Shown in pieces: positions 4,641 through 37,538 of a stretch of 45,759 nt of DNA; the first letter of the stretch is position 1, and each line of letters opens with the position of its first letter. The DNA is from an uncultured Colwellia sp. (GTDB lineage Bacteria; Pseudomonadota; Gammaproteobacteria; Enterobacterales; Alteromonadaceae), in contig CAJWZC010000021.1 of assembly GCA_913049915.1 (NCBI GenBank), positions 1 through 45,759 of the forward strand, read 5' to 3'. A model generated the notes under the pieces. The model had not been told where the DNA came from. It was given only the letters and a program-made list of their open reading frames with translations, and made no database searches. The translations under genes and the position numbers were made by a program.

Positions 4641-4641
4641 G

Positions 4642-5190: not shown

Positions 5191-5192
5191 TA

Positions 5193-8225: not shown

Positions 8226-8280
8226 TAGTATTTTTGATTCATGTGCATGCCTTTTGATAGCGTTTAGAGAAAGTAACCTA

Positions 8281-9051: not shown

Positions 9052-9803
9052 TGTGGAAATGGTTACACCCTTATGCAAATCCAGAAGTGTCTTATCACTT
9101 TACCAATAAATTATTACCTTGGTTAAGCGCCCTAACGGCAATATTTTTAAGCATTGGCTTAGTCTGGGCATTATTATTTGCCCCTGCCGATTATCAGCAA
9201 GGCCACAGTTTTCGTATTTTCTATATCCATGTACCTGCAGCTTCTTTATCTATGGGTATTTATGTTGCCATGGCAATAGCCGCATTTATCAGCTTAGTAT
9301 GGCAATTAAAACTTGCTGATGCGTCTGCTGCTGCGATGGCGCCTGTTGGCGCAGCGTTTACTGCAATAGCCTTAATTACCGGTGCTGCTTGGGGTAAACC
9401 AATGTGGGGAACGTGGTGGATTTGGGATGCTCGTTTAACCTCTGAGCTCATATTATTGTTTTTGTATCTTGGGGTCATAGCTTTACATAACGCCTTTGAA
9501 GATAAAAACTTAGCAGGTAAAGCAGCTGGAATACTTACCTTGGTAGGCGTGGTAAACATCCCCATTATTAAATACTCAGTAGAGTGGTGGAATACCCTTC
9601 ATCAAGGATCTACCGTGAGTAAATTGGGCAAACCATCGATGTCACTTGATATGTTATGGCCATTTATCTTTTGTTTTATTGGCTTTGCATTATTAGTGGC
9701 TGTGATTATATGCCTACGTTTTCGTAATGAAATTCTAGCGCGCAATAGTATTCGTCCTTGGGTTCGTGAGCTAATACAAAAAAATACAGTTAATAACACA
9801 TAA
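9051..9803 (+). CDS. ccmC: Heme exporter protein CcmC
   Basis: 250-residue, six-helix membrane protein of the heme-handling family that loads heme onto CcmE. The WWD domain is present as WGKPMWGTWWIWDARLTSE, with the flanking histidines in FYIHVPAA and VEWWNTLHQG that ligate heme. The start overlaps the ccmB stop (TGATG), showing translational coupling. Confidence 0.96.
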   Translation: MWKWLHPYANPEVSYHFTNKLLPWLSALTAIFLSIGLVWALLFAPADYQQGHSFRIFYIHVPAASLSMGIYVAMAIAAFISLVWQLKLADASAAAMAPVGAAFTAIALITGAAWGKPMWGTWWIWDARLTSELILLFLYLGVIALHNAFEDKNLAGKAAGILTLVGVVNIPIIKYSVEWWNTLHQGSTVSKLGKPSMSLDMLWPFIFCFIGFALLVAVIICLRFRNEILARNSIRPWVRELIQKNTVNNT

Positions 9804-12618: not shown

Positions 12619-12676
12619 AACTTCCTCGTTAACTTGCATTATTGTTATAATTATTTTTTATAGTTGAATTAGTAAA

Positions 12677-13807
12677 TTAAACTTTTTCACCTGCTATCCA
12701 GGTCTCTTTTACTGATAAGTCATCATTTAATACGACCATATCAGCTTGTTTTCCTTGGTTAAGTTCACCACGAATGACGGTTTGGTTTTGATATAAGTAT
12801 TCTGCTGGGTATAAACTGGCCATACGAATAGCTTCACCTAACTCAATGCCTAATTCTTGATGAGTATTCTTTACGGCACTCGCCATATCTAGTGAAGAAC
12901 CCGCTAGTTCACCTGTTGTTGAGGTAAGTTTACCGTTATCAACATAAACCGTACGATCGTATAAAGCGAATTGAGTTTGATCTGTGCCAACCGGTGGCAT
13001 TGCATCCGTGACTAAAAATATTTTACCTTGTGGTTTAGCTTGGATTGCTAATTTACAACTGGCGTAATCAACATGGAAGCCATCAACAATTAAGCCACAA
13101 CTTGTGTTGTTATTTAACAGCGCCGCACCAACAACTCCAGGCTCACGGCCCTGTAATGGCGACATTGCATTAAACAAGTGAGTAAAACCACTTGCACCAG
13201 CATCAATAGCCTTCTGAGACGTTTGATAATCTGCATTAGTATGGCCTAGGCAAACTTTAATACCTAACTCCACCATGCGTGTAACATCGTCATTACTAAC
13301 TGTTTCAGGGGCAAGTGTTACAATAACTTGGCCAATATCTTGACGTGAAAGAATCTGCCATTCATCGGTAGAAAGAGGGCGGATATAGTCAGCACAATGA
13401 GTACCTTTCTTTTCAACCGATAAATGTGGCCCTTCAAAGTGAACACCAACGATACCAGGAACGCCTTCTGATATTGCTTGAGCAATAGCATCTGCGGCTT
13501 GCTGCATTACTTCAAATGTATCGGTAATTAAGGTTGGCATCATTGCTGTCGTTCCAAATCGAGCATGTGCAGCCATAATTAATTTTAGATTATCCACTGA
13601 TGGAGAGTCATTGAATAATATCCCACCGCCACCATTAACTTGTAAATCGATATAACCTGGAACAACTAACCCAGTAGCTACGACGTCGACCTTACTGATG
13701 TCTTGGTCAATACCAGTAATTTTACCATCTACTATGGTCAAGACTTGATCATCGAGGAAAGCTTGTCCATCAAAAAATCGTTGAGCATGAAAGCGTGTTT
13801 GTGTCAT
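12677..13807 (-). CDS. nagA: N-acetylglucosamine-6-phosphate deacetylase
   Basis: 376-residue amidohydrolase that converts GlcNAc-6-P to glucosamine-6-P and acetate in the cytoplasm. Motifs in order: VPGYIDLQVNGGGG, the metal and substrate segment GVHFEGPHLS, LGHTNADY, FTHLFNAMSPL, DGFHVD and LVTDAMPPVG with the catalytic Asp. AGGAC lies ahead of the ATG. It sits between nagK and nagP in the same direction, under the operator upstream of nagK. Confidence 0.96.
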   Translation of the reverse strand: MTQTRFHAQRFFDGQAFLDDQVLTIVDGKITGIDQDISKVDVVATGLVVPGYIDLQVNGGGGILFNDSPSVDNLKLIMAAHARFGTTAMMPTLITDTFEVMQQAADAIAQAISEGVPGIVGVHFEGPHLSVEKKGTHCADYIRPLSTDEWQILSRQDIGQVIVTLAPETVSNDDVTRMVELGIKVCLGHTNADYQTSQKAIDAGASGFTHLFNAMSPLQGREPGVVGAALLNNNTSCGLIVDGFHVDYASCKLAIQAKPQGKIFLVTDAMPPVGTDQTQFALYDRTVYVDNGKLTSTTGELAGSSLDMASAVKNTHQELGIELGEAIRMASLYPAEYLYQNQTVIRGELNQGKQADMVVLNDDLSVKETWIAGEKV

Positions 13808-13865: not shown

Positions 13866-14759
13866 CTACTTAGCCTGTTCCTGTCTAGCGAAAAATACAG
13901 ACCCCACTTCGGGCGCATGTAATGGCTCTGCTAGATTGTCCTTGATATTATCTGCTAACCAAGATTTTAATCTTGCGGTTAAACCACCAAGCATAGATAT
14001 ACGAGGGGGGATTTTAACCATTAAAGTACGTGCAATACTATTAATGTACTCCGCACCTTCAGCAACGATAGCTAAGGCAACTTTATCACCAAGCTCGGCA
14101 GCATCAAACACTAGGTTTGCTTGCTGTGCATAGAATGTTGCTTTTTGACTAGCAACCGCCTCAACAAGGTCAGTATCATCTTTACAGTTGAGCTTATTCA
14201 AAAGTACACCGGACATCAAAGTAGGCTCAACTAAGCCGTCAAGAGATAATAAAACCTGTTTAACACCTTGTAAACCAAACCAAGCACCACTTCCTTTATC
14301 ACCATGAGGAAAACCATGAGCGCCAACAATACTATGCTGCCCATCAACACAAGCAAAACCACATGAACCTGTGCCACTAATAATAACAGCCCCATCACCG
14401 CCATCATGAGCGCCTAAACAAGCAATTAATAAGTCAGTCGCTAGATAAATTGTTTTAAATGGATGGTTCCAACCAGTCATTTTATCAAACAGCGCTGGTA
14501 TATTTACCCCAGCTAACCCCACACCAGCGACTAAATCACTTAGTTCTATATGTGTTAAGCCAGCATCTTCAAGCGCTAACTTTGCCGATTCAGTAATTGA
14601 GTTTGTCGCTTGCTCAAAACCATGTAAGGGATTGCCTGGACCTGAAATGCCTGTACCAAGTATTTCATTATTTTTATTCATAATAATAGCTTTACATTTA
14701 CTACCACCACCATCAATACCTAAAAATAATTCATTGTCTTTGTCACTACTTGTTAACAT
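13866..14759 (-). CDS. nagK: N-acetylglucosamine kinase (BadF/BadG/BcrA/BcrD ATPase family)
   Basis: 297-residue sugar kinase of the ASKHA fold. The phosphate-1 motif GIDGGGSKCKAI is at the N terminus, GTGISGPGNP follows, and the phosphate-2 motif ISGTGSCGFA with GDKGSGAWFG lies in the middle. Members of this family next to NagP act as GlcNAc kinases of the mammalian type, replacing the PTS step. First gene of the operon nagK-nagA-nagP; a palindromic operator is centred 66 bp upstream of the ATG. Confidence 0.92.
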   Translation of the reverse strand: MLTSSDKDNELFLGIDGGGSKCKAIIMNKNNEILGTGISGPGNPLHGFEQATNSITESAKLALEDAGLTHIELSDLVAGVGLAGVNIPALFDKMTGWNHPFKTIYLATDLLIACLGAHDGGDGAVIISGTGSCGFACVDGQHSIVGAHGFPHGDKGSGAWFGLQGVKQVLLSLDGLVEPTLMSGVLLNKLNCKDDTDLVEAVASQKATFYAQQANLVFDAAELGDKVALAIVAEGAEYINSIARTLMVKIPPRISMLGGLTARLKSWLADNIKDNLAEPLHAPEVGSVFFARQEQAK

Positions 14760-14804: not shown

Positions 14805-14833
14805 ATCTTAGCTAGAAATGACAGCGTTGTCAT
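14805..14833 (-). promoter_or_regulatory. NagR operator overlapping the nagK promoter
   Basis: The operator TGACAGCGTTGTCA is at 14819-14832. Read on the minus strand, ATGACA (14833-14828) can serve as -35 box and TAAGAT (14810-14805) as -10, exactly 17 bp apart, so a bound repressor would cover the -35. One of five copies in the window. Confidence 0.85.
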
Positions 14834-14947: not shown

Positions 14948-17602
14948 TTACTTAACCTGAGTAATACGACTTGTTCTCAAGCCATTAATACTACGACTTC
15001 TAACACTTACTTCACCAGAAATCACTATAGGATTTTGATAAGTAAGCCAGTCTCCGCCATTTACTTGATATTCTATCGTTAACCCTGGAAAGGCAATATT
15101 AGCGTGTAATTTATCCGCTTGGATAATCGCCCCAACAGTAGGTAAACGATAATCAATTTGAGCTAACTCAAGTTTAGCAAACTCTTTTTGTCCCAAGGTA
15201 TTAGCAAATAAGTGCCATTGGTTATCACGCATAGTCTTTAACTCAGTGGTAAACGTATTACTTTGTGATGAATATTTTGCGCCTTTATAATTATAAGGTA
15301 CGGCCCAATCAGCTTGATGCCATGCACGCTCTGCAAGTGCTAGTAAACGTGGGAATACTTTGTGCTCAACCATATCATCAGTACGAACGTTTTCGCTCCA
15401 CAACTGTCCCTGAATACCTAAGAACTTCTGGCCAGGTACTAAAGGGGTTTTGGTGTCATCAGCCACATAAGCATTATCTTGTCTATCTAACCAAAACTCA
15501 GCATGAACTGGTAAATTATCCGGCATAAACTGGAATACTTTTTCAGTATTGGTATGACGTGAAGCCCAGTAGTAGCCATGCTCTTTTGGATCTGCTTCAT
15601 GAGGGAAGTCAAAATACAAAACATCAGGACTAGAAAGAACAACTTGCCAATCTCTGTTTGCTAGCTGATGCACTTTATCGTGTCCTCCCCAGAATAACGC
15701 ATCCCAAGCATTGGCTTGAACGATAGCTGGCATATTCGCCTTGCGTGTATGCTCCATACCATCACTCCAACCAGCCGTTTCAATATCAAGTTCAGATAAA
15801 ATCCCGGCAACACGTTCAATAAAATAAGCACCTAATTCACTCATTTTTGTAACACCCTTGTCATTATTAGCAACAAAAGCTTTACAAGCAGGAGATTCTA
15901 ACCAAGCACCTGCCGTTTCATCTGCACCAATATGATAACGAGTAAGGGGTTGACCCGCGTCAGCATGAATTTTTTTCACCTGCGTCATCACTTCGACAAC
16001 AAAGTCATAAGACGATTCTAAGCATGCATTTATAGTGTTATCACTATAAAATTGTACTGATGAATATTTAGTTTTATCTTCAAAGTCTTCTAACAAAAAC
16101 TGTGTCGCTTTTACTTCATCTTCTAAAGCCATGAATTTTTTATAACGTGCCGTCATCGCTTTGATTGAAGCGCGAGAATGTCCAGGCATATCAAGTGAAG
16201 GGATCACTTGAATATGTCTCGCGGTAGCTGCTTGCAATATTTCTTTGTAATCACTGACGCTGTAGTAACCACTGACCGAGGAATCCTCATCAACACCTGC
16301 GCCTAATTGAGGGATTAAGCAATTTTCTTCTATCACATCAAAACAACGCTTTGCGCCAATATCAGTTAATTCTGGTAAGCTTGGTATCTCTAAACGCCAG
16401 CCTTCGTCATCTCCCAGATGTAAGTGTAATTTATTTAATTTATATGCCGACATTTGATCTAGCAGTTTTAAAATAAATTCTTTCGAGTGAAAATTACGGG
16501 CAACATCAACTAACATGCCACGAAAAGCGAAATGTGGTTCATCAATAACCGCTAACATAGGAATTCGCGATTGACCAACAGTCACTAAACTAGCTAATGA
16601 TTGTAAGCCATTGAATACGCCATTACCGTCAACACCTACGATAGTAATTTCTTTGTCTGTTACCACTAAACTATAACTACCAATAACTTTATCGTTATTA
16701 GTTACAATACTTAAACGCAAAGGTAAACCTGTAACGTTCTGTTTAACGCCTAGATCAGCTAAACGTGAAATAGCCGCTTCTACCTCTTTGTGCTTAACAT
16801 TACCTAATGAAACTGCAATACCCAGACTGATATCAGCAAAACCTGCGTTTGCGTCGATGCTTACAGATAAAGGTGTTGGAATAATAGCTTGAATAACCGA
16901 TAACTTATCTTCAACAAGTACCGAATTACGTTGATAAAGTTTTTCACTAGTTAGCCATTGTGTTTGATCTTCTGCACTGCGTTTAAACTGAGTATTACTA
17001 TCAGTAAACGTTTCAACGTGTGGCACAACTTCTAAGCCAGTCTCTTTATCGATATATGGTTTAGTGCTATCAATTACCCGTGCTTCTAAACTGGGTGCAC
17101 TAACAATATAGTTAGGCATAACATCTGATTCAGCTAATGACCAAAACATCGCTCGGAAGTTTAACGTTTTTTGTTCCCCTAGAGCGAACCCAGAAAATGT
17201 ATCTTTTAAACTGATTTGATGTAAATCACCATTAAGGTGTTTTACGTTGAAATCATCACTTTCAAACGATTGAATAGGCGCGATTTGGCTAAAGTGAATA
17301 GTCCAATCTTTCGCTGCTATCGCTTGTTTAGCAGTAAAGGTTAGCTCCACCTCAAAACAGGCGCCATTAGCAACTTTGCTGTCGCACTTATCAGTCGGAA
17401 TATTAGTCACTACACGATAATTAACCGTTAAGTTCTCAGCAATTTTATTTATATCATTCTGCGTAACTGAATATATTGCTTGTAGATTAATTATCTCACC
17501 AGTATCGATGACTGGTTTGGGAGCTTTTTCACAACCAGCTAGTGTTAATGTGCTAGCTATAACTAGGACCAAGATATTTATAATTTTTTTCTTTATTATC
17601 AT
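14948..17602 (-). CDS. Beta-N-acetylhexosaminidase (GH20), lipoprotein
   Basis: 884 residues from the ATG at 17602. The frame is open to 17740, but that would put the operator inside the gene and bury the signal peptide; the 17602 start gives a clean lipoprotein signal with lipobox LTLAGC. The N-terminal part matches the chitobiase carbohydrate-binding domain (WTIHFSQIAPIQSF), then a GH20b-type alpha/beta domain, then the GH20 barrel with DVARNFHSKEF, LHLHLGDDEGWRLEI and the catalytic pair Asp561-Glu562 in YHIGADETAGAW. A C-terminal CHB_HEX_C-like sandwich closes it. It should release GlcNAc from chito-oligosaccharides at the cell envelope. Confidence 0.94.
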   Translation of the reverse strand: MIIKKKIINILVLVIASTLTLAGCEKAPKPVIDTGEIINLQAIYSVTQNDINKIAENLTVNYRVVTNIPTDKCDSKVANGACFEVELTFTAKQAIAAKDWTIHFSQIAPIQSFESDDFNVKHLNGDLHQISLKDTFSGFALGEQKTLNFRAMFWSLAESDVMPNYIVSAPSLEARVIDSTKPYIDKETGLEVVPHVETFTDSNTQFKRSAEDQTQWLTSEKLYQRNSVLVEDKLSVIQAIIPTPLSVSIDANAGFADISLGIAVSLGNVKHKEVEAAISRLADLGVKQNVTGLPLRLSIVTNNDKVIGSYSLVVTDKEITIVGVDGNGVFNGLQSLASLVTVGQSRIPMLAVIDEPHFAFRGMLVDVARNFHSKEFILKLLDQMSAYKLNKLHLHLGDDEGWRLEIPSLPELTDIGAKRCFDVIEENCLIPQLGAGVDEDSSVSGYYSVSDYKEILQAATARHIQVIPSLDMPGHSRASIKAMTARYKKFMALEDEVKATQFLLEDFEDKTKYSSVQFYSDNTINACLESSYDFVVEVMTQVKKIHADAGQPLTRYHIGADETAGAWLESPACKAFVANNDKGVTKMSELGAYFIERVAGILSELDIETAGWSDGMEHTRKANMPAIVQANAWDALFWGGHDKVHQLANRDWQVVLSSPDVLYFDFPHEADPKEHGYYWASRHTNTEKVFQFMPDNLPVHAEFWLDRQDNAYVADDTKTPLVPGQKFLGIQGQLWSENVRTDDMVEHKVFPRLLALAERAWHQADWAVPYNYKGAKYSSQSNTFTTELKTMRDNQWHLFANTLGQKEFAKLELAQIDYRLPTVGAIIQADKLHANIAFPGLTIEYQVNGGDWLTYQNPIVISGEVSVRSRSINGLRTSRITQVK

Positions 17603-17677
17603 TTTAATAGGACCTTTGACCATTTTATTATTAAAAGTAAACTTTATCGACAATACATTCGTATAACTATGACTATG

Positions 17678-17706
17678 ACTATGCTTATTTTTGACAGCGC
17701 TGTCAA
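17678..17706. promoter_or_regulatory. NagR operator/promoter before the hexosaminidase
   Basis: Perfect palindrome TGACAGCGCTGTCA at 17692-17705, extended on both sides by T and A runs. On the minus strand TTGACA (17706-17701) and CATAGT (17683-17678) lie 17 bp apart and look like the promoter. The site also lies 250 bp upstream of the divergent plus-strand gene at 17953 and may serve both. Confidence 0.9.
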
Positions 17707-17800
17707 AAATAATTATAATAAATTTATTAAAAATAATCAAAGTCCGCCATTTTTTGAAACAAGTGTTAAAATGTTGTTCTGGTTGTTGATGGAATTACAG

Positions 17801-17832
17801 GTATTAGCTTAATTATAATAATAAGCTAATAC
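17801..17832. promoter_or_regulatory. Perfect stem-loop in the leader of the DUF6445-like gene
   Basis: GTATTAGCTTA (17801-17811) and TAAGCTAATAC (17822-17832) are a perfect 11-bp inverted repeat with a 10-nt AT loop, 120 bp before the start at 17953. It is not followed by a T-run on the plus strand, so it is not a plain terminator. It could be an RNA structure or a protein site. Confidence 0.5.
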
Positions 17833-17952
17833 CCCAAGCTTGATAAATACTCTGGTTTCTGTAATTACAAGTGTTCCGAAGTTGAATACCATGCAGTAAC
17901 TTGAATCGTATGTGCAATTAAGCTTGAAACCAATATTTTAAGGAACTATTAC

Positions 17953-18660
17953 ATGCTAGCTTTCTCACCCTACTTAGTAGGCAAAAATAGTTCATCAGTT
18001 AATTATATTGGGTTAAATCAAACCCCAGTTTTAGTTTTTGATTTTAATATTGATTTCTCAGATTACTTAATTAATAAAGCATCCATATATAAAATGGACT
18101 GGATACCTGCTAGCAACTTTTATCCTGGAATATGGTCAAAAGTACCAACAGACTTTTGTACTGAATTACAAGATTTTATACAGCCTTATATTGATAAACA
18201 TTTATTTAACTTTAAATCAAAAGTTTCAAATACTTACAGTTGTTATGCTATGGCAGTAAAGGACAAAGATCACTTAGCCATCGCACAAAAAATACCTCAC
18301 TTTGACAGTTTCTCTGATATGCAAATAGCGACTGTTTTATACCTTTGTGATGAGGAGTTTGGTAGTACAGTTTTCTATAGACACAAAAATACTAAAATAG
18401 AAAAAATTACTAAAGATAATAAAAATAGCTATATGAAAACGATTAAAGAAGAAATCGATTATCTTGGAGTAAACACATTAAATCCGTGTGAGAATTTATT
18501 TGATAAAATATTTGAATGTAAGGCTAAAAAGGGTAGATTATTAGTTTATCCAAGTTCTATTTTTCATAATGGTGTCTTAAATAATGTAAATTATACAGAA
18601 AGAGATCCTAAAAAAGGTCGACTGACTATTACATCATTTATCAATTACAAACAGACATAA
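17953..18660 (+). CDS. DUF6445-like protein, probable Fe(II)/2-oxoglutarate oxygenase fold
   Basis: 235 residues, cytosolic, no signal peptide. The C-terminal half reads like a double-stranded beta-helix dioxygenase: KIPHFDSF (His116, Asp118), TVLYLCDEEFGSTVFYRH, GRLLVYPSSIFHNGV (His205) and GRLTITSFI (Arg223), which would give the HxD...H metal triad and an Arg for 2-oxoglutarate. Proteins of the DUF6445 type recur beside tryptophan halogenases and TonB receptors; the family name is from memory. It starts with AAGGA upstream and lies before the first halogenase, 291 bp away. Function is not known; the fold is inference. Confidence 0.72.
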   Translation: MLAFSPYLVGKNSSSVNYIGLNQTPVLVFDFNIDFSDYLINKASIYKMDWIPASNFYPGIWSKVPTDFCTELQDFIQPYIDKHLFNFKSKVSNTYSCYAMAVKDKDHLAIAQKIPHFDSFSDMQIATVLYLCDEEFGSTVFYRHKNTKIEKITKDNKNSYMKTIKEEIDYLGVNTLNPCENLFDKIFECKAKKGRLLVYPSSIFHNGVLNNVNYTERDPKKGRLTITSFINYKQT

Positions 18661-18951
18661 TAGTTATTTTAAGTAAGGCTCTCAGATTATAATTACGCAA
18701 ATATATTAATTACATTTATACACTTTAAGCTAGTATACCAGGCTATTTTTCTTGTTAGTAAGTTCCTAGTGTGGTTTTATAATTAGCCTTTGATAAAAGT
18801 TTAACGGCTCACTTATTAACGAGTCAACTTATATCGTGTGTATACATTTATAACTTTCTGGCGCAATATTTTGTTATTAGCATTAGAAAACTGTACAACA
18901 CACTTTTAACGCAACCATGTTGGCTATTTCAGCATATAGATAGAGGTAATA

Positions 18952-20508
18952 ATGTCTACGACTATTGATAATCTTGTAATTGTTGGTGGAGGTACCGCTG
19001 GTTGGATTAGTGCGTGTAACCTTGCCAAGAAGCTTAATATAAAATCAGACGAATCATTGAACATTACAATTATTGAATCACCTGATATCCCTACCATTGG
19101 TGTAGGTGAAGGGACTTGGCCAACGATGCGGAAAACACTAAGTAATTTAGGTATCGATGAAAGTGAGTTTATGCGTGAGTGTAACGCAACCTTTAAACAT
19201 GGAACTAAATTTGTTAATTGGAGAGAAACACCTATAGGTAATCAATCCGAGTATTATTATAATTTATTTACTTCATTCATTAACCCTGAAGAGTTTAATT
19301 TAGGACCTTACTGGAATATGGGATTAGCTCCCAAGGACAAGACCTACCCTGACTCAGTATCAATGCAACAACAAATTTGTGAAGCAGGTTTAAGCCCTAA
19401 AAAAATAACAACTCCTGCCTACGAAGGAATAGTTAATTACGCGTACAGTATAGATGCAGGCTTATTTGTCAAAATGCTGAAGAAATTAGCGACAGAGAAG
19501 CTTGGTGTTAAGTTTATCCAGACAAATGTACTGAAAGTAAATCAAGATGAAGATGGCTATATTTCTTCATTAGATACTGATACTGCTGGTTGTATACCTG
19601 GTGATTTATTTATTGACTGTACCGGTTTTAAAGCTTTGTTAATAGGTGAAACGCTTAAAGTACCTTTTAATTCTTTCGCTGATAAAATCCTAACCAACCA
19701 TGCAGTATTCATTAAAGTTCCATACCCTGACAACGAAACTGAAATTGTACCCTGTACAGTGTCTACCGCACAAGAATGTGGATGGACATGGGATATAAGC
19801 TTATCAAATCGTAGGGGTGTTGGTTACGTATATTCTGACAAATACTCCACGCATGAAAGAGCAGAAGAGGTACTACGTAATTACATTGGTGAAAAATCTA
19901 AAGGGCTAACGGCTAAAAAAATTAAAATTAATGTAGGACAGAGAAATGAAGCTTTTCATAAAAACTGTTTGGCTATGGGTATGGCTGCGGCATTCATTGA
20001 GCCATTAGAAGCATCAGCAATATTTTTAATCGAGGCAGGCTCAAATATGCTTGCAAATATATTCCCGAGGAACCGTGACGCTCTAAAAAATGTGGCTAAT
20101 GTATATAATGAGTCTTTTAATTACCGATGGGCGAGAACTATCGATTTTGTAAAAATGCATTATGTATTATCAAATAGAAACGATAGTGAATTTTGGAAAG
20201 ATAATAAAAAGCTATCTTCAATTCCACAGTCTTTAACTGATCAACTCAACCACTGGAAAAGCCACCCAATTACAGCTTATGACTTTCCGAATACTTTTGA
20301 ACCATTTGTTATGGAAAGTTATCAGTTCATCTATTATGGCATGATGAAAGACATAAAATACCATCATAATGGCAGTTTCCCAGATACCGAAAAGGCAAAG
20401 GTGATTTTCAATCAAATTGATAAAATGACTAAACAAGCTTTAATTGAACTTCCTAATCACCGAGAGCTTATTAATAAAATATACGATTTTGGTATGCAGA
20501 AAATCTAG
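18952..20508 (+). CDS. Flavin-dependent tryptophan halogenase homologue 1
   Basis: 518 residues. The FAD-binding motif GGGTAGW opens the protein (residues 12-18) and the PTIGVGEGTWPTMR segment is typical. The catalytic lysine of flavin-dependent halogenases is kept (Lys82 in NATFKHGTKFVNW). The GWxWxIP motif is GWTWDIS here, with Ser for the final Pro. PLEASAIFLIE near residue 345 is the usual C-terminal flavin segment. Such proteins in TonB-receptor clusters have unknown natural substrates; some have been shown to favour bromide. AGAGGT precedes the ATG. It converges with the second halogenase. The halogenase family is sure; actual activity is not. Confidence 0.9.
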   Translation: MSTTIDNLVIVGGGTAGWISACNLAKKLNIKSDESLNITIIESPDIPTIGVGEGTWPTMRKTLSNLGIDESEFMRECNATFKHGTKFVNWRETPIGNQSEYYYNLFTSFINPEEFNLGPYWNMGLAPKDKTYPDSVSMQQQICEAGLSPKKITTPAYEGIVNYAYSIDAGLFVKMLKKLATEKLGVKFIQTNVLKVNQDEDGYISSLDTDTAGCIPGDLFIDCTGFKALLIGETLKVPFNSFADKILTNHAVFIKVPYPDNETEIVPCTVSTAQECGWTWDISLSNRRGVGYVYSDKYSTHERAEEVLRNYIGEKSKGLTAKKIKINVGQRNEAFHKNCLAMGMAAAFIEPLEASAIFLIEAGSNMLANIFPRNRDALKNVANVYNESFNYRWARTIDFVKMHYVLSNRNDSEFWKDNKKLSSIPQSLTDQLNHWKSHPITAYDFPNTFEPFVMESYQFIYYGMMKDIKYHHNGSFPDTEKAKVIFNQIDKMTKQALIELPNHRELINKIYDFGMQKI

Positions 20509-20512
20509 TTAA

Positions 20513-20548
20513 AAAAAAGTAACCACAGTATCTTGCGGTTACTTTTTA
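20513..20548. terminator. Bidirectional terminator between the two halogenase genes
   Basis: AAAAAGTAACC and GGTTACTTTTT form a stem with a loop of about 13 nt and A/T tracts on both sides, placed exactly between the convergent halogenase stops. Confidence 0.85.
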
Positions 20549-20565
20549 TTTTTATACGGTATCAA

Positions 20566-22056
20566 TTACTGCGTAAGCATTAAAATACTTTCTTTATGAT
20601 CAATAAATTTTTCTGCCGTTATACCTTGGCAAAAACTTAGTGTTTTTTCATGGCTAGGTATTAATTGAAAAGTTGTAGCTGCTTTTCTCCCCTCAGGAAA
20701 CCTGCCCATACCAGCAAAAATAGCGTACCAAGAGGCACGTTTGTACATCAAAGATGGTGATAGTTTACTAAGAGCAGCATCAAAATCTTGTTCTGAATCC
20801 CATGCTGTAATAATACTTTCAAGAGTATTTGAAATAGCAGGTTTTTCTCTACAATCTATCCAATACTGACTATCTACTCTATCGTTCAATTTATAATGTG
20901 TAACGATATAATCTTTAACACCTTCAAACATTTGGTTAATTGTCGTATTGTAATTATCTACATCAGTATCGGATGTTTCAACATAACGAATAAATTTATA
21001 AATACTATATTGTACTAGCATTAATGCCGTTGCTTCTAAAGGCTCTATAAAACCCTGAGACAAACCTATAGCAACACAGTTGTTCTTTAAGTGTTCTTCT
21101 CTGCGTCCTATTCTCATTTTTAAATGCTTAGCAGGCTTGCCTTCTGAAGACTTGCCGATATGCTTTCTAAGTTCCTTTTCAGCACCTTCCGCACTTAGGT
21201 ATTTGGAGCTATAAACATATCCATACCCAATACGATTCGTTAGGGGTATTTGCCAGCACCAACCACTTGATAAGGCTTCAGAAATAGTAGCTGAAGGTGC
21301 TCTGTCAGCATAGACTTCAGTAGGAATGGTTACTGCTGAATCATTAAAAAGACTATTTTCGTATGAAATAAATTTTGAATTGAGTGCTTTTTCTATCAAT
21401 AGTGAGTAAAAACCAGAGCAATCAACAAAAAAATCAGCTTTGATATCTTTAATACCATCTATTTGAATGCCTTCAATATCACCATTAGCAGCCAAAGTGA
21501 CATTACTCACCTTCGCTTCAATATAATTCAAACCCAAAGCTAAGGATTTTTCTTTTAAGAAAAGAGCAAGCCGACTGGAATCAAAATGATAACCGTAATC
21601 AATTTGTGTGGGTTCGATAGCCGCTGGACCTTTATTTTGTTTAAACAGCTGCGGTGCTATAAAATGATTATCAGGGTGAGCAGTAAGAGAAACGCCTCGT
21701 CGTTTATGGCCACAACGAGTAAAAAACGACTCACCTGGGCCAACATCATATTCAGAAAAAAAAGGATGAAAATAGTCAGTATGGCCAGTGACGGTGGACC
21801 AATTAGAAAAGCTTATACCAACTTTATAAGTTGCATTACAAGCTGGCATCCATTCAGATTCAGTTATACCTAGGTCAGTAAAGAAGGTTTTTAATGCAGG
21901 TGTTGAACCTTCACCTACTCCAACAGTACCAATTTCTGGTGACTCGATTAAAGATACCTTAGTACCACTACCAGCCCATTTGTGAAGTAAACTTATAGCT
22001 GTCATCCAACCAGCAGTCCCACCACCTACAATGACTATATTTTTTAATGTAGACAT
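20566..22056 (-). CDS. Flavin-dependent tryptophan halogenase homologue 2
   Basis: 496 residues from the ATG at 22056, which has GAGG 7 bp upstream; a GTG one codon earlier is less likely. It has the FAD motif GGGTAGW (residues 11-17), GTVGVGEGSTPALK, the catalytic lysine (Lys78 in NATYKVGISFSNW) and an intact GWCWQIP motif, plus FIEPLEATALMLVQ. It is clearly a divergent paralogue of the halogenase facing it. It is the last gene of the run TonB receptor, SapC-like, halogenase, and follows the SapC-like gene by 23 bp, so these two are co-transcribed. Confidence 0.92.
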   Translation of the reverse strand: MSTLKNIVIVGGGTAGWMTAISLLHKWAGSGTKVSLIESPEIGTVGVGEGSTPALKTFFTDLGITESEWMPACNATYKVGISFSNWSTVTGHTDYFHPFFSEYDVGPGESFFTRCGHKRRGVSLTAHPDNHFIAPQLFKQNKGPAAIEPTQIDYGYHFDSSRLALFLKEKSLALGLNYIEAKVSNVTLAANGDIEGIQIDGIKDIKADFFVDCSGFYSLLIEKALNSKFISYENSLFNDSAVTIPTEVYADRAPSATISEALSSGWCWQIPLTNRIGYGYVYSSKYLSAEGAEKELRKHIGKSSEGKPAKHLKMRIGRREEHLKNNCVAIGLSQGFIEPLEATALMLVQYSIYKFIRYVETSDTDVDNYNTTINQMFEGVKDYIVTHYKLNDRVDSQYWIDCREKPAISNTLESIITAWDSEQDFDAALSKLSPSLMYKRASWYAIFAGMGRFPEGRKAATTFQLIPSHEKTLSFCQGITAEKFIDHKESILMLTQ

Positions 22057-22079
22057 CACCCGCCCTCTTGAAATATTTT

Positions 22080-22781
22080 TTAGTTTCTGTTTTGAGCTAA
22101 TCTACCAATTTGGTTTAAGGATATTAAATGTGCATAAATAGGTAAAAGGAACCCTTTAGTCTTTAATGATAGGTAATCATCTTTCGATAATGCCTGTAAT
22201 TTTTGCTCTGATACGATATAAATACCATCTACATCATGTTTTGAGCCATCTTCACGCGTAATAGTGAAGCCACGTGGGATTAACAAATCTTTTTCTATAA
22301 GCAGTTTAATAAGCGCATCAGTAAGAAAAGTTTTCTCGAGTAAAGCTATGATTTCTTTTTGTTTAGCTTTTAGAAAGTCACTTTGTTCTCCAGTATCTGT
22401 AAATAACGCCTCACCTTCAGAAGAAGAAACAAGATCGCTACTTTCATCTATACACAATACGAAATTATCAAATTCATTACTAGTCGCTTTTACCGAAAAA
22501 GGTTCTTTACGCATATTTTGCGGCGTGTAGTACCCTTGCCATTCTCCTTCTTTGAAAAAATTATTCTCATTAACTTCAAAACCAAACATAGCGACTGAGT
22601 CAAACTTACCTGAGTCAGCATTTTTAACAAATACAATAGGAAACTCTGTCGCTACACTAGCATATTCATGAACAACAATAGGTAATATATGGTGATTTTT
22701 ATATGCATGATAATGTGTATTTTCTTTAACTTTTGTCAGGCGATGTGCCTCTAGACTTATTTGACTTAGCGAATTTTTCAC
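22080..22781 (-). CDS. SapC-like family protein
   Basis: 233 residues, starting at GTG (22781) with AGGAGAG upstream. The N-terminal pattern LPIVVHEYASVATEFPIVFV and the following MFGFEVNENNFF and GEWQGYYTPQNMRKEPFSV are the hallmarks of the SapC-like family (named after a Campylobacter S-layer-locus gene). The biochemical role is unknown; the family habitually sits between TonB-dependent receptors and halogenase homologues. No signal peptide or membrane helix. It follows the receptor gene across a hairpin. Confidence 0.88.
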   Translation of the reverse strand: MKNSLSQISLEAHRLTKVKENTHYHAYKNHHILPIVVHEYASVATEFPIVFVKNADSGKFDSVAMFGFEVNENNFFKEGEWQGYYTPQNMRKEPFSVKATSNEFDNFVLCIDESSDLVSSSEGEALFTDTGEQSDFLKAKQKEIIALLEKTFLTDALIKLLIEKDLLIPRGFTITREDGSKHDVDGIYIVSEQKLQALSKDDYLSLKTKGFLLPIYAHLISLNQIGRLAQNRN

Positions 22782-22804
22782 TAGGACTCTCCTAATATTT
22801 TGAC

Positions 22805-22834
22805 AAAAAAAGGGAAGGTATAAACCTTCCCTTC
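22805..22834 (-). terminator. Intra-operon terminator between TonB receptor and SapC-like gene
   Basis: AGGGAAGG (22811-22818) pairs with CCTTCCCT (22825-22832) over a 6-nt loop and, read on the minus strand, is followed by a run of seven T. It lies 27 bp after the receptor stop and 30 bp before the SapC-like GTG. It probably lowers expression of the downstream enzymes relative to the receptor. Confidence 0.8.
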
Positions 22835-22858
22835 ATAACTTATTTACTTAATTCGCTA

Positions 22859-25477
22859 TTAAAAACGGATTTTAGCGTTAAAGTAGTAACGCGCACCATT
22901 TTCGAAGTTACCACGGATTAAGTTGTTTTCTGGAGATTGTCGAACAATTTCAACTTCAGAAAGCAAGTTAACACCTTCTACTGAAAGATCGATATTCTCT
23001 GTAACATGATAAGTGAATGAAGCGTCTAAGTAGCCACGAGATTCATTAAGTGCTCCAGCACCAAATGCGGCACTACCTATAAACTCGTCACGCCAGTTAT
23101 ATGATGCACGAGTACTGAACATATCGCTTTCATAAAAAGCACTAACGTTCATAGAGTGCTTAGAATTACCAGGTAACTGTACGCTTTCAGTGGTAGTTAC
23201 GATTGTATCACCATCTATTACTTGAGATACAGATTCGCCCTTAGCATCTGAGTAAGTGTAGTTAAATGATGAACCAAAGCCGTTTCCAAAGTCATGTTGA
23301 ACTTGGAATTCAAAACCTCGAGTATAACCACCAGAACCATTAACAGGTAAAGTTACATTGTAATCTGCTGGCCTGTCAGGGTTATTAACAAATTTAACCA
23401 CATTTTGCTGTGTAATGAAAGATGAAATATCTTTATAGAAGAACGTTCCTGAAATTAATGAAGCATCAGTAAAGTACCATTCTAAACCTAAGTCGTACTG
23501 ATTGGCACGGTATGGGTCTAATGCGATGTTACCTTGGTTGATTCTTAGTAATTCAGGGTTAGCACTACTATAAGTAGGCATTAAATCTGAATATTTAGCT
23601 CTTGAAATAACGCGTGAAGCGGCACCACGTAAAATAACATCATCCGTAAGGTCCATAGCGATGTTTACACTTGGTAACCAATCATCATAGCTATTTTCTT
23701 CAGAAAATTCAGATGTACCGTCATGCGCAGTACCTGTAGTATCAGTGTTAACGTAACGTACACCTACGTTACCGCGGAAACCTTCACCAGAAAAGTTACC
23801 TTGCGTATACAGAGCAGTAATTTCTTCTTCTAAACGTCCAAAGGCGCTAAGATTAACAGCTTCAGTTACACCAACTTCACGTTTTAAGAAGTCAGCAAAT
23901 GCTGACATATTGGGTAATAAGTAGCCACCTTGAGTAGTTGATTTACCTGTTTCAGGTAATACATCTGTGGTAGCGCCACCAACAAAATCAGTCATTCTTA
24001 AGTTATTAAGCGCTGAAGTATCATTCCATGTACCGCTTACTGCATCTTGACCTGTTTCATGATCACGGTATTTAAAACCAAGGTCGATACTATCAAAAGC
24101 ACCTAAATCAACATCAACACTAATATCAAGTTGTAGGTAAGATTCTTCATCAAACTTAGGAGTACGTGAGAATGATGGAGACATACCAACATTATGGCCG
24201 TTTGTTAGTGTGTCAGCATTCATTAGGTCCATTGCAGGTACAGGATTACCCACATTATCAAAACCACCAGCTACACCTTGGACGTTACCGTATGAAAAGC
24301 TTTCACCTGTTAAATCGAATGAGCTATTTGCGTAACCACCGAAGAAACCACCAACTTCTTGACTTGTACCACCAGTAGCTTCAGTTGAACCTACTTGAAC
24401 ACTTACAGTGTAAGAATCACCTTCGTAGTTAGCTGCTAAGTCAATTGTTTCAGAAACCATTGTAGCTTGACGATAGTAGTTATCTAATCCTGTATCAAAA
24501 CCGTTAGATGGATCCAGGTTTGTAGTCATGTCACCAACAAGAGGAACGCCATCATCATCTGCTGCACTTACGTTAACAATATTAGCGCCGCGACCAGGCA
24601 TAATTAAAACGTTAGTATTGGTGTTATCTGCTTGTAATTCTGTATTGAAATAATGAAGTGTTAAATCTAAACCGTCTGTTGGAACCCACTGTGCAGTAAC
24701 ATCGATTGACGTGCGTTCACGTTCTTGATCGAATGTTGCCATACCTGCGCCCCAAGACCAATATGTTTCGCCATTTTGACGTACAGTATGACGTTGTGAC
24801 ATACCAGCAGCTACTAATAAGCCAATATTTTCTTCGTCATTTTTCCAGCTAATTAAACCAGAAACAGCTGGATCTAAATCACCAGACAGATCAGAGTATA
24901 CACCTTCTATTCCGGCGTACATTGTCATTGAATCCATATCAAGTGGCTTACGAGTTTTCATATTAATTAAACCACCAATACCACCTTCTTGTAACTTGGC
25001 TTGTGGTGATTTATAAACTTCTAAACCGGCAACAGCTTCAGCTGGCATAAGTTCGAAGTTAAAGCTACGACGTGCTGGATCTAATACGAACCAACCTGTA
25101 GAAGCAATTTTTTGACCATTTAATGTAGTCAATGTTAAATCTGGAGATGTACCACGGATTGAAACTTGACCACCTTCACCAAAATCTCTTGATACCGTAA
25201 TACCAGGAATACGTGCTAATGAATCAGCAACGTTTTTGTCTGGGAATTTACCAATATCTTCAGAACTAACATAATCAACAACGCTATCTGCAAAGCGTTT
25301 AGCGTTGATGTTTTCTTTTAATGAACCACGAATACCCGTTACTTGAATTACTTCAACTTCGTCTTTGTTTATTTCAGAAGCGGCTGCTTCTGCTGCGATA
25401 GCTTGTGATGATACACCAGCTAGAATCATAGCAATCGAACTTGCTAATACGCCTTTCTTAAATGTTTTAGTTGACAT
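22859..25477 (-). CDS. TonB-dependent outer membrane receptor (Xanthomonas/Caulobacter type), probably for GlcNAc oligosaccharides
   Basis: 872 residues from the ATG at 25477 (AAGGG upstream; six more in-frame residues are possible). Signal peptide MSTKTFKKGVLASSIAMI ending near SSQAIAAEA; a TonB-box-like VEVIQVTG; the plug domain with GKFPDKNVADSLARIPGITV and VSIRGTSPDLTLTTLNG; a 22-strand barrel with the closing RYYFNAKIRF and terminal Phe. The plug pattern is that of the TonB-Xanth-Caul subfamily, often tied to sugar uptake. A NagR-type operator is centred 124 bp upstream, so chitin-derived oligosaccharides are the likely ligand. Confidence 0.93.
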   Translation of the reverse strand: MSTKTFKKGVLASSIAMILAGVSSQAIAAEAAASEINKDEVEVIQVTGIRGSLKENINAKRFADSVVDYVSSEDIGKFPDKNVADSLARIPGITVSRDFGEGGQVSIRGTSPDLTLTTLNGQKIASTGWFVLDPARRSFNFELMPAEAVAGLEVYKSPQAKLQEGGIGGLINMKTRKPLDMDSMTMYAGIEGVYSDLSGDLDPAVSGLISWKNDEENIGLLVAAGMSQRHTVRQNGETYWSWGAGMATFDQERERTSIDVTAQWVPTDGLDLTLHYFNTELQADNTNTNVLIMPGRGANIVNVSAADDDGVPLVGDMTTNLDPSNGFDTGLDNYYRQATMVSETIDLAANYEGDSYTVSVQVGSTEATGGTSQEVGGFFGGYANSSFDLTGESFSYGNVQGVAGGFDNVGNPVPAMDLMNADTLTNGHNVGMSPSFSRTPKFDEESYLQLDISVDVDLGAFDSIDLGFKYRDHETGQDAVSGTWNDTSALNNLRMTDFVGGATTDVLPETGKSTTQGGYLLPNMSAFADFLKREVGVTEAVNLSAFGRLEEEITALYTQGNFSGEGFRGNVGVRYVNTDTTGTAHDGTSEFSEENSYDDWLPSVNIAMDLTDDVILRGAASRVISRAKYSDLMPTYSSANPELLRINQGNIALDPYRANQYDLGLEWYFTDASLISGTFFYKDISSFITQQNVVKFVNNPDRPADYNVTLPVNGSGGYTRGFEFQVQHDFGNGFGSSFNYTYSDAKGESVSQVIDGDTIVTTTESVQLPGNSKHSMNVSAFYESDMFSTRASYNWRDEFIGSAAFGAGALNESRGYLDASFTYHVTENIDLSVEGVNLLSEVEIVRQSPENNLIRGNFENGARYYFNAKIRF

Positions 25478-25511
25478 CGTTTTTCCCTTACACACGTTTT
25501 GTTTTAGAATG

Positions 25512-25594: not shown

Positions 25595-25608
25595 TGACAA
25601 CGCTGTCA
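25595..25608. promoter_or_regulatory. NagR operator before the TonB receptor
   Basis: TGACAACGCTGTCA, differing from the perfect palindrome at one position. On the minus strand it starts ATGACA, which can be a -35, with GATAGT 18 bp further. Centred 124 bp before the receptor start. Confidence 0.85.
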
Positions 25609-26017: not shown

Positions 26018-27658
26018 CTATTTTGCTGATTGATAGAACTTCAACAAACTTGACGTTGAACAATCATGTTGTTCAGAAATTTTATCCGTTGCTAGCTCAC
26101 TTTGGATCTCGGCCGCAAGACCTTTACCAAGCTCAACACCCCATTGATCAAAAGAACATATCTGTAAGATAATACCTTGAACAAAGATCTTATGTTCATA
26201 AGCAGCAATTAAGCTACCAAGATTTCTTGGATTAATACACTTTAATAAAATGGTATTTGTGGGTCTGTTACCTTTGTGAACTTTATGTGGGGCAACTTTA
26301 TCGATGTAATCGGCATTACGACCTTTAGCTTTTAAATCTGCACGTACTTGCTCTTCATTAACACCAACCATCAATGCTTGCGTTTGCGCAAAAAAATTAG
26401 CCATTAAAGTTTCATGATGACCTTTCACTGGCGTAACACTTTTAACCGAGCCAATAAAGTCAGCAGGTACAACATTATTACTTTGATGCAAGTATTGGTA
26501 AAAGGCGTGTTGACCATTGATACCTAACTCGCCCCAGATAGAAGGTACTGTAGCATAATCGACTTCATCACCATCCCAACTAACCGATTTACCATTACTT
26601 TCCATTTCAGCTTGTTGTAAATATGACGTTAGCATGTGTAAAGTCTGATCGTAGGGTAAAATGGCTTGCGATTGAGAGCCAAGAAAAGTGGTATTCCAAA
26701 CACTAATCAATGCTAAAACAACGGGGAAGTTATCTGTTAACGGCGCACTAATAAAATGCTGGTCCATATCATGAGCACCGTTAAGTAACTCTTCAAACTT
26801 ATCAAAACCTAAATCAAGTGCAATGGCAAGGCCAATCGCTGACCATAATGAAAAGCGACCACCAACCCAATCCCACATATCAAAGATATTTTGTTCTTCG
26901 ATACCAAAACTCATAGCATTTTCTTTATTAGCGGTTACCGCAACAAAATGTTTGGCAACAGAATTTTCATCGAAAGAAGCACTAGTTAGCCAATTAATAG
27001 CAGTACGGGCATTAGTCATGGTCTCTGTAGTAGTAAATGTTTTACTTGAAACAATAAATAGAACTTTTTCAGGCTCTAACGGACGGAGTACTTCAGCAAT
27101 TTGTGCACCATCTACGTTAGAGACGTAATGAACGTTAACACTGCCATCACTATATTGCTTTAAAGCTTCTGTGACCATTTGTGGACCAAGGTTTGAACCA
27201 CCAACGCCAATATTAACGATATCGGTAATACGTTTACCTGAATAGCCTAACCAATGTCCTTGACGTACTTTATTAACAAAAACTTCCATTTCGGCTAATT
27301 GATTTTGAACATGATCGGTGACATTTTCACCATCAATGATAAGCGGCTCATGACTTTGTCGACGTAAAGCAGTATGCAAGACCGCACGGTCTTCGGTTTT
27401 ATTAATTTTCTCACCAGCAAACATTTTAGCTCGCCAATCACAAACTTGTGTCTCTTCTGCCAAGGCTAACAAGGCATCTAACGTTTCACTATCGATTAAG
27501 TTTTTAGAATAATCAAGCAGCATGTTGGGTAATTCAATTGAGAATTTATTGAAACGCTCACTGTCTTGTGCAAACAAGTCATTCATGTGCTGAGATTTTT
27601 TATCTTGGGCAAGTTGCTGAAGTTTTTTCCAGCTAGCTAATGTTTGACGCGATGACAT
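26018..27658 (-). CDS. pgi: Glucose-6-phosphate isomerase
   Basis: 546 residues from the ATG at 27658, which has AGGA 7 bp upstream and gives the family length; the frame is open for ten more codons. Motifs: IVNIGVGGSNLGPQMV, IVSSKTFTTTETMTNA, the GELGINGQHAFYQYLHQ active-site stretch and HKGNRPTNTI. It interconverts glucose-6-P and fructose-6-P. It lies divergent from the LacI-family regulator with a NagR-type operator between them, which places it in the amino-sugar regulon. In that setting it would feed fructose-6-P made by NagB into hexose phosphates. Confidence 0.97.
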   Translation of the reverse strand: MSSRQTLASWKKLQQLAQDKKSQHMNDLFAQDSERFNKFSIELPNMLLDYSKNLIDSETLDALLALAEETQVCDWRAKMFAGEKINKTEDRAVLHTALRRQSHEPLIIDGENVTDHVQNQLAEMEVFVNKVRQGHWLGYSGKRITDIVNIGVGGSNLGPQMVTEALKQYSDGSVNVHYVSNVDGAQIAEVLRPLEPEKVLFIVSSKTFTTTETMTNARTAINWLTSASFDENSVAKHFVAVTANKENAMSFGIEEQNIFDMWDWVGGRFSLWSAIGLAIALDLGFDKFEELLNGAHDMDQHFISAPLTDNFPVVLALISVWNTTFLGSQSQAILPYDQTLHMLTSYLQQAEMESNGKSVSWDGDEVDYATVPSIWGELGINGQHAFYQYLHQSNNVVPADFIGSVKSVTPVKGHHETLMANFFAQTQALMVGVNEEQVRADLKAKGRNADYIDKVAPHKVHKGNRPTNTILLKCINPRNLGSLIAAYEHKIFVQGIILQICSFDQWGVELGKGLAAEIQSELATDKISEQHDCSTSSLLKFYQSAK

Positions 27659-27777
27659 AATAATTCCTATAAGGTCGTTTAGACACAATTATCGACTTTA
27701 TCATGATAGTTAAGTTGAGTATTTACTCTATTTAACCATTATGACCTGTCAAAATTTCATGATACCCTATAAAAAAA

Positions 27778-27791
27778 TGACAGCGCTGTCA
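27778..27791. promoter_or_regulatory. NagR operator between pgi and nagR
   Basis: Perfect palindrome TGACAGCGCTGTCA. It is centred 126 bp from the pgi start and 130 bp from the regulator start, so it can control both and provide autoregulation. On the pgi side TTGACA is embedded in it with TATAGG 15 bp further. Confidence 0.9.
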
Positions 27792-27914: not shown

Positions 27915-28940
27915 ATGAAAGCGACTATAAATGACGTAGCAAAACAAGCTGGCGTATCAATAAAAACTGTTTCTCGTGTTATCAATAATGAAACTTCAGT
28001 TCGTCAATTAACAAGAGAAAAAGTACAACTAGCCGTAGATGAACTCAATTACCAACCTAACTTATCAGCGCGTAACTTAGCTGGTGCAAAATCATTTTCT
28101 GTTGCCTATATTTACGATAATCCAAACGCTTATTACATCATTGATATGCAAGGTGGCATATTATCAGCCTGTAAGAAACAAGGTTTTGAGCTATTAATTC
28201 ACCCATGTGATGCAAAAAATGAAAATATTACCGAAGAAGTTGTGAACATGGTTAAGCAAGCACGTATTGCTGGCTTAATCTTAACTCCACCTTTATCTGA
28301 AATGCCTGAATTTGTTAAATCATTAATAGATCTTGATGTTAAAGTTGTTCGAATTATGTCGGGTGACGTCGCACCCGACGAGCTAAGTCCCTGTGTTATG
28401 GTCAACGATAGAGAAGCGGCACAAATAATTACACAGCATCTAATTGACTTAGGCCATAAAGATATTGCTTTTATTGCTGGTGATGCAAAGCATATGTCCA
28501 CTATTGAGCGCTATAAAGGTTATAGGAGAGCATTAAAATCAAGTGATATTGAGTTTAATAAAAACCTTGTTATCGAAGGCGAATACTCTTTCGATTCAGG
28601 TGTTAGTGGTGCAAAGCAATTGATGTCTACTGAAAGTAATAAAATACGTCCTACGGCTATTTTTTCTTGTAATGATGAAATTGCAGCGGGTGCATTATTT
28701 GCAGCACGATTAATGGATATTTCGATACCTGAACAATTATCTATTGTGGGTTTTGAAAACAGCCCATTCTCACGTCAAACTTGGCCAAAACTGACGACGG
28801 CTGATCAGCCCAATGGTCAAATCGCTGAAGATGCAGCAAATTTACTTCTCAGCCAAGTTCGTAAGCAAAAAAATCAAGTTACCATCAGCCAATATGTACC
28901 AAAACTTATTATCAGAGACTCAAGTGCACAGTGTAAATAA
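27915..28940 (+). CDS. nagR: LacI-family repressor, probable NagR of the GlcNAc regulon
   Basis: 341 residues. The N-terminal helix-turn-helix TINDVAKQAGVSIKTVSRVI and the hinge helix (QPNLSARNLAG) are typical LacI/GalR. The effector domain follows with VMVNDREAAQIITQHLIDLG, IAFIAGD and SCNDEIAAGALFAARL. The even, centre-CG palindromes around it are classic targets of this family, and their presence before nag genes identifies the ligand as an amino-sugar metabolite, in other species GlcN-6-P or GlcNAc-6-P. Divergent from pgi. Naming it NagR is inference from context. Confidence 0.88.
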   Translation: MKATINDVAKQAGVSIKTVSRVINNETSVRQLTREKVQLAVDELNYQPNLSARNLAGAKSFSVAYIYDNPNAYYIIDMQGGILSACKKQGFELLIHPCDAKNENITEEVVNMVKQARIAGLILTPPLSEMPEFVKSLIDLDVKVVRIMSGDVAPDELSPCVMVNDREAAQIITQHLIDLGHKDIAFIAGDAKHMSTIERYKGYRRALKSSDIEFNKNLVIEGEYSFDSGVSGAKQLMSTESNKIRPTAIFSCNDEIAAGALFAARLMDISIPEQLSIVGFENSPFSRQTWPKLTTADQPNGQIAEDAANLLLSQVRKQKNQVTISQYVPKLIIRDSSAQCK

Positions 28941-37509: not shown

Positions 37510-37538
37510 TTGACAGCGCTGTCATTTTTTAATAATGT
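37510..37538 (+). promoter_or_regulatory. NagR operator/promoter before nagB
   Basis: Perfect palindrome TGACAGCGCTGTCA at 37511-37524. TTGACA (37510-37515) is embedded in it and TAATGT (37533-37538) lies 17 bp further, 88 bp before the ATG. Confidence 0.88.

Follow-up and report, generated by a model that had tools for sequence, protein, structure and literature searches.

Why should homologues of flavin-dependent halogenases, together with a SapC family protein and a DUF6445 protein, be encoded among genes for the use of N-acetylglucosamine (GlcNAc)? The question is raised by a stretch of 45,759 nucleotides from an uncultured Colwellia sp. (assembly GCA_913049915.1, contig CAJWZC010000021.1, positions 1 to 45,759 of the forward strand; termed here 'the window'), in which these genes adjoin that of a TonB-dependent receptor. 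They constitute a recurrent receptor-SapC-halogenase module, joined in this case by a predicted 2-oxoglutarate (2OG) oxygenase (the DUF6445 protein) and located inside a predicted GlcNAc/chitin regulon. The best-supported mechanism, to which we would give somewhat less than an even chance, is that the module modifies its own TonB receptor before export, with bromination and hydroxylation as the predicted reactions.

All parts of the module were confirmed within positions 17953-25495, inside the GlcNAc cluster, with Pfam scores far above the cut-offs; the gene set that an earlier reading of the window from its letters alone (the 'sequence-only reading') had placed in a sugar cluster, namely two halogenases, SapC and DUF6445, is thus borne out. 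The DUF6445 gene (17953..18660; PF20043, 169 bits) and the first halogenase gene (Hal1, 18952..20508; PF04820, 391 bits) lie on the plus strand and converge with a run on the minus strand that is composed of the receptor (22859..25495; TIGR01782 class, TonB-Xanth-Caul, 618 bits against a cut-off of 310, with Pfam Plug and barrel domains), SapC (22080..22781; PF07277, 214 bits against a cut-off of 28.9) and the second halogenase (Hal2, 20566..22059; PF04820, 409 bits, the gathering cut-off for both halogenases being 21). The first ATG of the receptor is at 25477, which matches the end used in the earlier reading.

The linkage of these genes is conserved elsewhere, and more broadly than the sequence-only reading had supposed. 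In a sample of 89 genomes from the window's family, 47 contain DUF6445, 81 contain SapC and 83 contain halogenases. SapC and a halogenase occur together in 79 genomes and are both absent from 4; a further 2 possess only SapC and 4 only a halogenase, with weak hits accounting for two of the latter (Fisher p 0.0004, from counts tallied by hand). Across the wider order, DUF6445 is rarer (9/99 genomes). The family sample holds 60 DUF6445 places, with a halogenase within 6 kb in 43, SapC in 41, a receptor in 43 and a Cupin_8 gene in 19; a halogenase or SapC is found at that distance in 49 of the 60, and neither in 11, including the three weakest hits (L022, L087 and L088). The gene orders at DUF6445 loci include, with the TonB-dependent receptor denoted TBDT, TBDT-Hal-SapC-Cupin_8-Hal-DUF6445 (11 loci), TBDT-Hal-SapC-DUF6445 (10) and TBDT-SapC-Cupin_8-Hal-DUF6445 (7). 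The genome from which the window derives encodes nine halogenases, seven of them in four loci that each have an adjoining receptor; the neighbours of the other two are out of sight because a contig starts there.

When the window receptor was instead used as the query, 47 matches (E <= 1e-120) were obtained in 39 of the 89 family genomes; 46 of them lie outside the window, and for 40 of these the neighbouring DNA was retrieved, the remaining six being left out. Among the resulting 41 loci, window included, 30 are GlcNAc clusters, and 23 of these have a halogenase near the receptor ('near' being 7.5 kb in this receptor-picked set and 5 kb in a set fetched later). A further scan for SapC in named relatives gave 64 loci (L164-L227), with a halogenase within 6 kb in 32 of 63 SapC loci, and with at least 10 Shewanella SapC loci that lack any of the partners searched for. 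Receptor, SapC and halogenase are found together in GlcNAc clusters of Shewanella, Colwellia, Thalassomonas, Thalassotalea, Litorilituus, Rheinheimera, Arsukibacterium and Alkalimonas. The placement of the module in a GlcNAc regulon, as first proposed, is therefore a recurrent arrangement, of which DUF6445 is the less constant part: within GlcNAc clusters it adjoins the module in the window, in L187, L201, L203 and L204 (Colwellia-type) and in L085 (from a genome of the same genus), and in L140 it is 4.7 kb away from the receptor. In the Colwellia loci it is divergent from the GH20 hexosaminidase gene and convergent with the halogenase-receptor run, as in the window. The lack of SapC in locus L139 is due to the end of the contig; a different contig of that genome begins with SapC-DUF6445-GH20 (L085), and together the two suggest a split GlcNAc cluster, with receptor-Hal and SapC-DUF6445-GH20 in the Colwellia order. 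Two observations made along the way are a small SAM methyltransferase (7511-8191 of L018, a cassette of the window's own genome) in the slot held elsewhere by Cupin_8, and DUF6445 genes in other clusters with large TonB receptors (L066, L069 and L072), where the neighbours look polysaccharide-related by eye and the stretch read holds no halogenase.

Does the module belong to the receptor or to the sugar? GlcNAc loci that possess all six genes compared (38 in number, or 21 after thinning at 85% NagR identity, with the nearer halogenase used where there were two) gave correlations with receptor distance of 0.63 for SapC, 0.66 for the halogenase, 0.41 for GH20, 0.43 for NagK and 0.47 for NagR in the unthinned set. 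The corresponding partial correlations are 0.50, 0.60, 0.00, -0.03 and 0.20 for the 38 loci, and 0.55, 0.37, 0.02, 0.06 and 0.02 for the thinned 21, where the number of permutations (of 2000) that reached the value was 0 for SapC, 1 for the halogenase, 767 for GH20, 524 for NagK and 859 for NagR. Because receptor, SapC and halogenase co-vary with one another and hardly with the sugar genes, one of the two targets offered by the sequence-only reading, a component of the uptake system, is favoured, and the other, a co-imported ligand, is lowered. GH20 as a target was likewise lowered, given its lack of co-variation with the receptor.

The choice of enzyme also appears to depend on the type of receptor. 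In a set of 63 GlcNAc loci (biased, because part of it, L164-L227, was picked by SapC and mixed with the receptor-picked set), receptors of the F693/G172 type account for 49 and have an adjoining halogenase in 48; those of the Y/S type account for 10, with one halogenase, four Cupin_8 genes and five cases of neither; and other types account for 4, with two halogenases and two Cupin_8 genes. The same alternation is seen within Alkalimonas at a single GlcNAc locus, which in related genomes carries either a W-type receptor and a halogenase or a Y-type receptor and Cupin_8 (L207 as against L205, L208 and L210), receptor and enzyme having been exchanged together while SapC and GH20 kept their places. 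That the enzyme goes with the type of receptor although the sugar is the same is a second reason for which the co-imported ligand was lowered as a target.

The cluster that surrounds the module is, from its sequence features, a predicted GlcNAc/chitin regulon under NagR, and a response to GlcNAc is predicted with it. The operator TGACANCGCTGTCA occurs at five exact sites in the window: at 14819..14832, before nagK (13866..14759, minus strand; an N-acetylglucosamine kinase of the BadF type, NF046058, 452 bits against a cut-off of 370, and PF01869); at 17692..17705, between GH20 (14948..17740, minus strand; PF00728, 307 bits) and DUF6445; at 25595..25608, before the receptor-SapC-Hal2 run; at 27778..27791, between a phosphoglucose isomerase-family gene (26018..27688, minus strand; PF00342, 698 bits) and a LacI-family regulator that is probably NagR itself (27915..28940, plus strand; PF00356 and PF13377, with no equivalog cut-off reached); and at 37511..37524, before a glucosamine isomerase-family gene (37626-38432). 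The motif is assigned to NagR because of this placement of sites before probable target genes. With up to two mismatches allowed, 11 strand-wise matches were found in the window against 0.44 expected, a number reached in none of 100 shuffles; they include a sixth place, at 45340, with two mismatches. The whole genome has nine exact sites (reversed control, none), and one of the four outside the window directly precedes a gene with chitin-type binding domains. The sequence-only reading had put the receptor-SapC-halogenase run behind one operator and the DUF6445-halogenase run divergent from another, and both sites are in place: the first is 117 bp before the receptor ATG, and the second is 247 bp upstream of DUF6445 and shared with the divergent GH20. 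The GH20 open reading frame (ORF) starts with TTG and overruns this operator, so that the real start is probably near 17600. In L201, L203 and L204 an operator lies ~100-120 bp before DUF6445. An inverted repeat (hairpin) with arms of ~12 bp is also present at 17800-17837 of the window, between the shared operator and DUF6445, and could be a terminator or an attenuator.

Are the two halogenases equipped for catalysis? Enzymes of this family possess a GxGxxG motif for FAD, a conserved lysine and a conserved glutamate with catalytic roles, and a WxWxIP family motif. The first three features are present in all nine halogenases of the genome, and K82, E353 and W278 are invariant in all 153 gathered halogenases left after filtering by length and score. 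The catalytic residues are complete in both window enzymes, which, so far as residues can tell, are predicted to retain the halogenase chemistry that the sequence-only reading required. The family motif reads WCWQIP in Hal2 (class III in the grouping used here) and WTWDIS in Hal1 (class II); its last position is proline in classes I and III and mostly glycine, alanine or aspartate in class II. The solved structure nearest to Hal1 is 2pyx (422 bits). Two other loci, L044 and L059, contain a third and much weaker halogenase-like ORF (11827-13329, 134 bits, and 6755-8170, 47 bits, respectively) in one run with two good halogenase genes and between them; it may be a member of the family that has diverged or does not halogenate.

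For the DUF6445 protein, the apparent Fe/2-oxoglutarate site noticed earlier has been borne out by residue conservation and fold: the HxD...H facial triad and a 2OG-binding arginine (H116, D118, H205 and R223) are kept in 31 of 31 sequences, and a confident structural model (pLDDT 92) displays a double-stranded beta-helix with the metal/2OG site, 2OG oxygenases filling the top fold ranks. The nearest folds by Z score are those of a mimivirus lysyl hydroxylase (13.9), OGFOD1 (13.7), LH3 (13.5), P4H (12.7) and PHD2 (12.4), although identity to such prolyl and lysyl protein hydroxylases (Pseudomonas putida P4H, OGFOD1, PHD2, LH3 and mimivirus L230) is only ~12-18% and no sequence relative was found in the PDB at E <= 1. 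On the strength of the model, DUF6445 is a predicted Fe(II)/2-oxoglutarate oxygenase, closest by Z score to protein hydroxylases. A remote homologue in the same genome (L022, 7352-8062) has neither halogenase nor receptor neighbours in the stretch read.

The model of SapC is also confident (pLDDT 93) and found no match among the solved folds searched, an absence that does not prove a new fold. Trp81 is invariant in 68 of 68 sequences, the invariant residues include one glutamate (E39), His13 is nearly invariant, and there is no set of aspartates or cysteines; with no obvious catalytic set and no fold match, a role as an enzyme is not favoured. A SapC gene elsewhere in the genome (L021, 8674-9459) has neither halogenase nor receptor neighbours in the stretch read.

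Taken as steps, modification of the receptor would proceed as follows. GlcNAc would relieve repression by NagR; SapC, as a non-catalytic adaptor or chaperone, would present the unfolded receptor; the halogenases and DUF6445 would act on it in the cytoplasm before its export (their location being suggested by the lack of a signal peptide, as seen by eye); the halogenases would put bromine on an aromatic side chain, the best candidate being W801, and DUF6445 or the Cupin_8 protein would hydroxylate a side chain; and the modification would then tune assembly or ligand uptake. A more general proposal, which we regard as somewhat doubtful, is that halogenation is a dedicated post-translational modification of outer-membrane transporters, in which SapC hands nascent receptors to neighbouring halogenases and 2OG hydroxylases and the enzyme set follows the type of receptor rather than the sugar.

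The candidate residue emerged from comparisons of receptors with and without a partner. W801 occurs in all 40 receptors whose gene precedes that of a halogenase or SapC, as against 3 of 17 others (receptors under 650 aa left out); in 17/26 with a halogenase and 0/15 without in the receptor-picked set (those under 700 aa left out); in 55/64 with a halogenase or SapC in cis and 3/31 without in a deduplicated tree set of 95 receptors (those under 800 aa, or duplicate, left out); and in 26/32 against 1/6 in the set fetched after the idea arose (those under 600 aa left out). A second residue, F693, seemed a powerful marker initially (23/26 against 0/15) and was then set aside: it is phenylalanine in the halogenase set, and is therefore used only as a mark of lineage.

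Several results weigh against modification of the receptor, or against W801 as its site. W801 ranks second among 7620 residue-column pairs, Gly172 (G172) being slightly stronger. On the tree, five independent pairs gave a mean of 3.1 for the association, 0 against and 1.9 with no difference (median p 0.25), a test that could not reach significance because only five supported pairs were available; W801 is confounded with phylogeny, was rejected as a proven site and remains a candidate. It is missing from some linked receptors (9/64 and 6/32) and is present in L110, L117 (own genome), L062 and L165, where no halogenase adjoins. By strand alternation it would face lipid, an odd place for a modification; comparison of the receptor with the PDB gave only plug-level similarity, so the residue could not be mapped on a solved receptor. 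In 7 of the 30 GlcNAc clusters the receptor has no halogenase within 7.5 kb. The structures nearest to Hal2 are those of free-tryptophan halogenases (8fov, 311 bits, as against 260 bits for BrvH), and for DUF6445 Foldseek itself ranks first HygX, an enzyme with an antibiotic as its substrate. Finally, the co-variation is also expected from the mere transfer of the genes as a block, which could also yield the observed choice of enzyme, and these results are therefore support rather than proof.

What else might the enzymes act upon? The halogenase family is best known for small-molecule chemistry, and the substrate could be a free small aromatic (an indole, a phenol, a plant or animal aromatic arriving with polysaccharide, or a signal), the product of which the receptor takes up or senses. 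This explanation, which we consider unlikely although it survives best among the alternatives, draws on the kinship of Hal2 just mentioned, on the slow bromination of free indole that is described for BrvH in the main text of PMC5945002, and on a PLP-dependent decarboxylase gene (PF00282, 38576-40207) 16 kb from the module; such enzymes can use aromatic amino acids, and if this one does so it would speak for a small molecule. That gene apart, a Pfam scan of 24 window proteins showed no aromatic or secondary-metabolite pathway gene (the other loci were annotated only for module and GlcNAc families), the enzyme follows the type of receptor within one sugar regulon, and the folds nearest to DUF6445 by Z score are those of protein hydroxylases. 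Improbable in our estimation is that the target is a different protein, be it SapC, a component of TonB/ExbD or a secreted hydrolase, with the receptor as a mere neighbour: SapC co-varies most strongly with the receptor in the thinned set, could be a carried substrate and has its invariant Trp81, whereas GH20 shows no such co-variation and for eight halogenase-receptor pairs SapC is missing from the surrounding 7.5 kb (L129, L141, L143, L146, which is near a contig end, L147, L154, L156 and L157). Least probable of all is a block transferred together without joint chemistry, its halogenases being general reactive-halogen or oxygenase enzymes used, for example, against competitors. Block exchange would by itself give both co-variation and locus swaps, but NagR, a gene of this cluster too and located beyond the receptor on its opposite side, co-varies little, and short gaps and overlaps, the SapC-halogenase co-occurrence and the retained catalytic residues suggest a joint function.

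A precursor peptide of the kind used for ribosomally synthesized and post-translationally modified peptides (RiPPs) was also considered and lowered, there being little room for one in most operons. Median gaps are 4 bp for Hal-DUF6445, 12 bp for SapC-Cupin_8, 10 bp for Hal-Hal and 108 bp for receptor-Hal, with a few of up to 2.2 kb; the one window gap read for small ORFs, that between DUF6445 and Hal1, contains one of 23 aa, another in antisense that overlaps with Hal1, and no more. The close spacing of most module genes likewise leaves few places for any other substrate gene, which is a third point in favour of the receptor as target.

How does modification of the receptor compare with systems already described? 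BrvH (PMC5945002) and Xcc4156 (PMC7336383) are PF04820 enzymes whose native substrates are given in those main texts as unknown; they do not halogenate free tryptophan, have open active sites, prefer bromide or accept nothing else when given test substrates, and have led to the suggestion of peptides as substrates, and BrvH also has a neighbouring second halogenase gene. The window halogenases match their structures at 219-260 bits but differ from them in that Hal1 is nearer to 2pyx and Hal2 to the free-tryptophan enzymes, and in their setting, beside SapC and DUF6445 in a GlcNAc regulon. Neither TonB nor SapC is mentioned in the main text of either paper or, in a word search of the text available, in a halogenase survey (PMC8269204). 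MibH, as cited in PMC7336383, halogenates a peptide; its structure, listed there as 5uao, matches the window halogenases at 160-177 bits, and unlike MibH-type systems the module showed no precursor-peptide gene in the gaps looked at. A precedent for cytoplasmic modification of protein tryptophan is QhpG, a halogenase-like flavoprotein that, according to the available text of PMC7876137, dihydroxylates tryptophan of a protein that is still in the cytoplasm and has yet to be translocated, and is encoded beside its substrate. The window halogenases are not QhpG by NCBIfam (32-34 bits to NF049967, the cut-off being 240); radical SAM and protease partners were covered by the Pfam scans of the module and by no other search.

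On the side of sugar use, comparative genomics of Shewanella and its relatives, in the main texts of PMC2996990 and PMC5343134, describes GlcNAc/chitin clusters with NagR (LacI family), NagK, NagP and an outer-membrane receptor (omp-Nag), which the window cluster resembles in its LacI regulator, NagK and receptor. The words halogenase and SapC are absent from those main texts and from that of PMC9537276, on GlcNAc and chitin use, and among the matches listed there was no paper on a receptor-halogenase-SapC link, subscription papers and preprints lying mostly outside the search.

The proximity of halogenase genes to those of TonB receptors has been noted previously, and for that reason the neighbourhood itself is not claimed as new. 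If the receptor is indeed halogenated, a new kind of protein modification would be added to those known for outer-membrane proteins, and SapC and DUF6445 would gain a function. The GlcNAc regulon would offer an inducible system in which one candidate substrate and a candidate residue are already named, and for which the halogenase-free versions of the cluster are natural controls.

The cluster has two further members to the left of nagK, an MFS permease (11305-12639) and a NagA-type amidohydrolase (12677-13807). Beyond these, on the same side, lie cytochrome c maturation genes (CcmF, CcmB and CcmH-like, 2858-9803), which seem unrelated.

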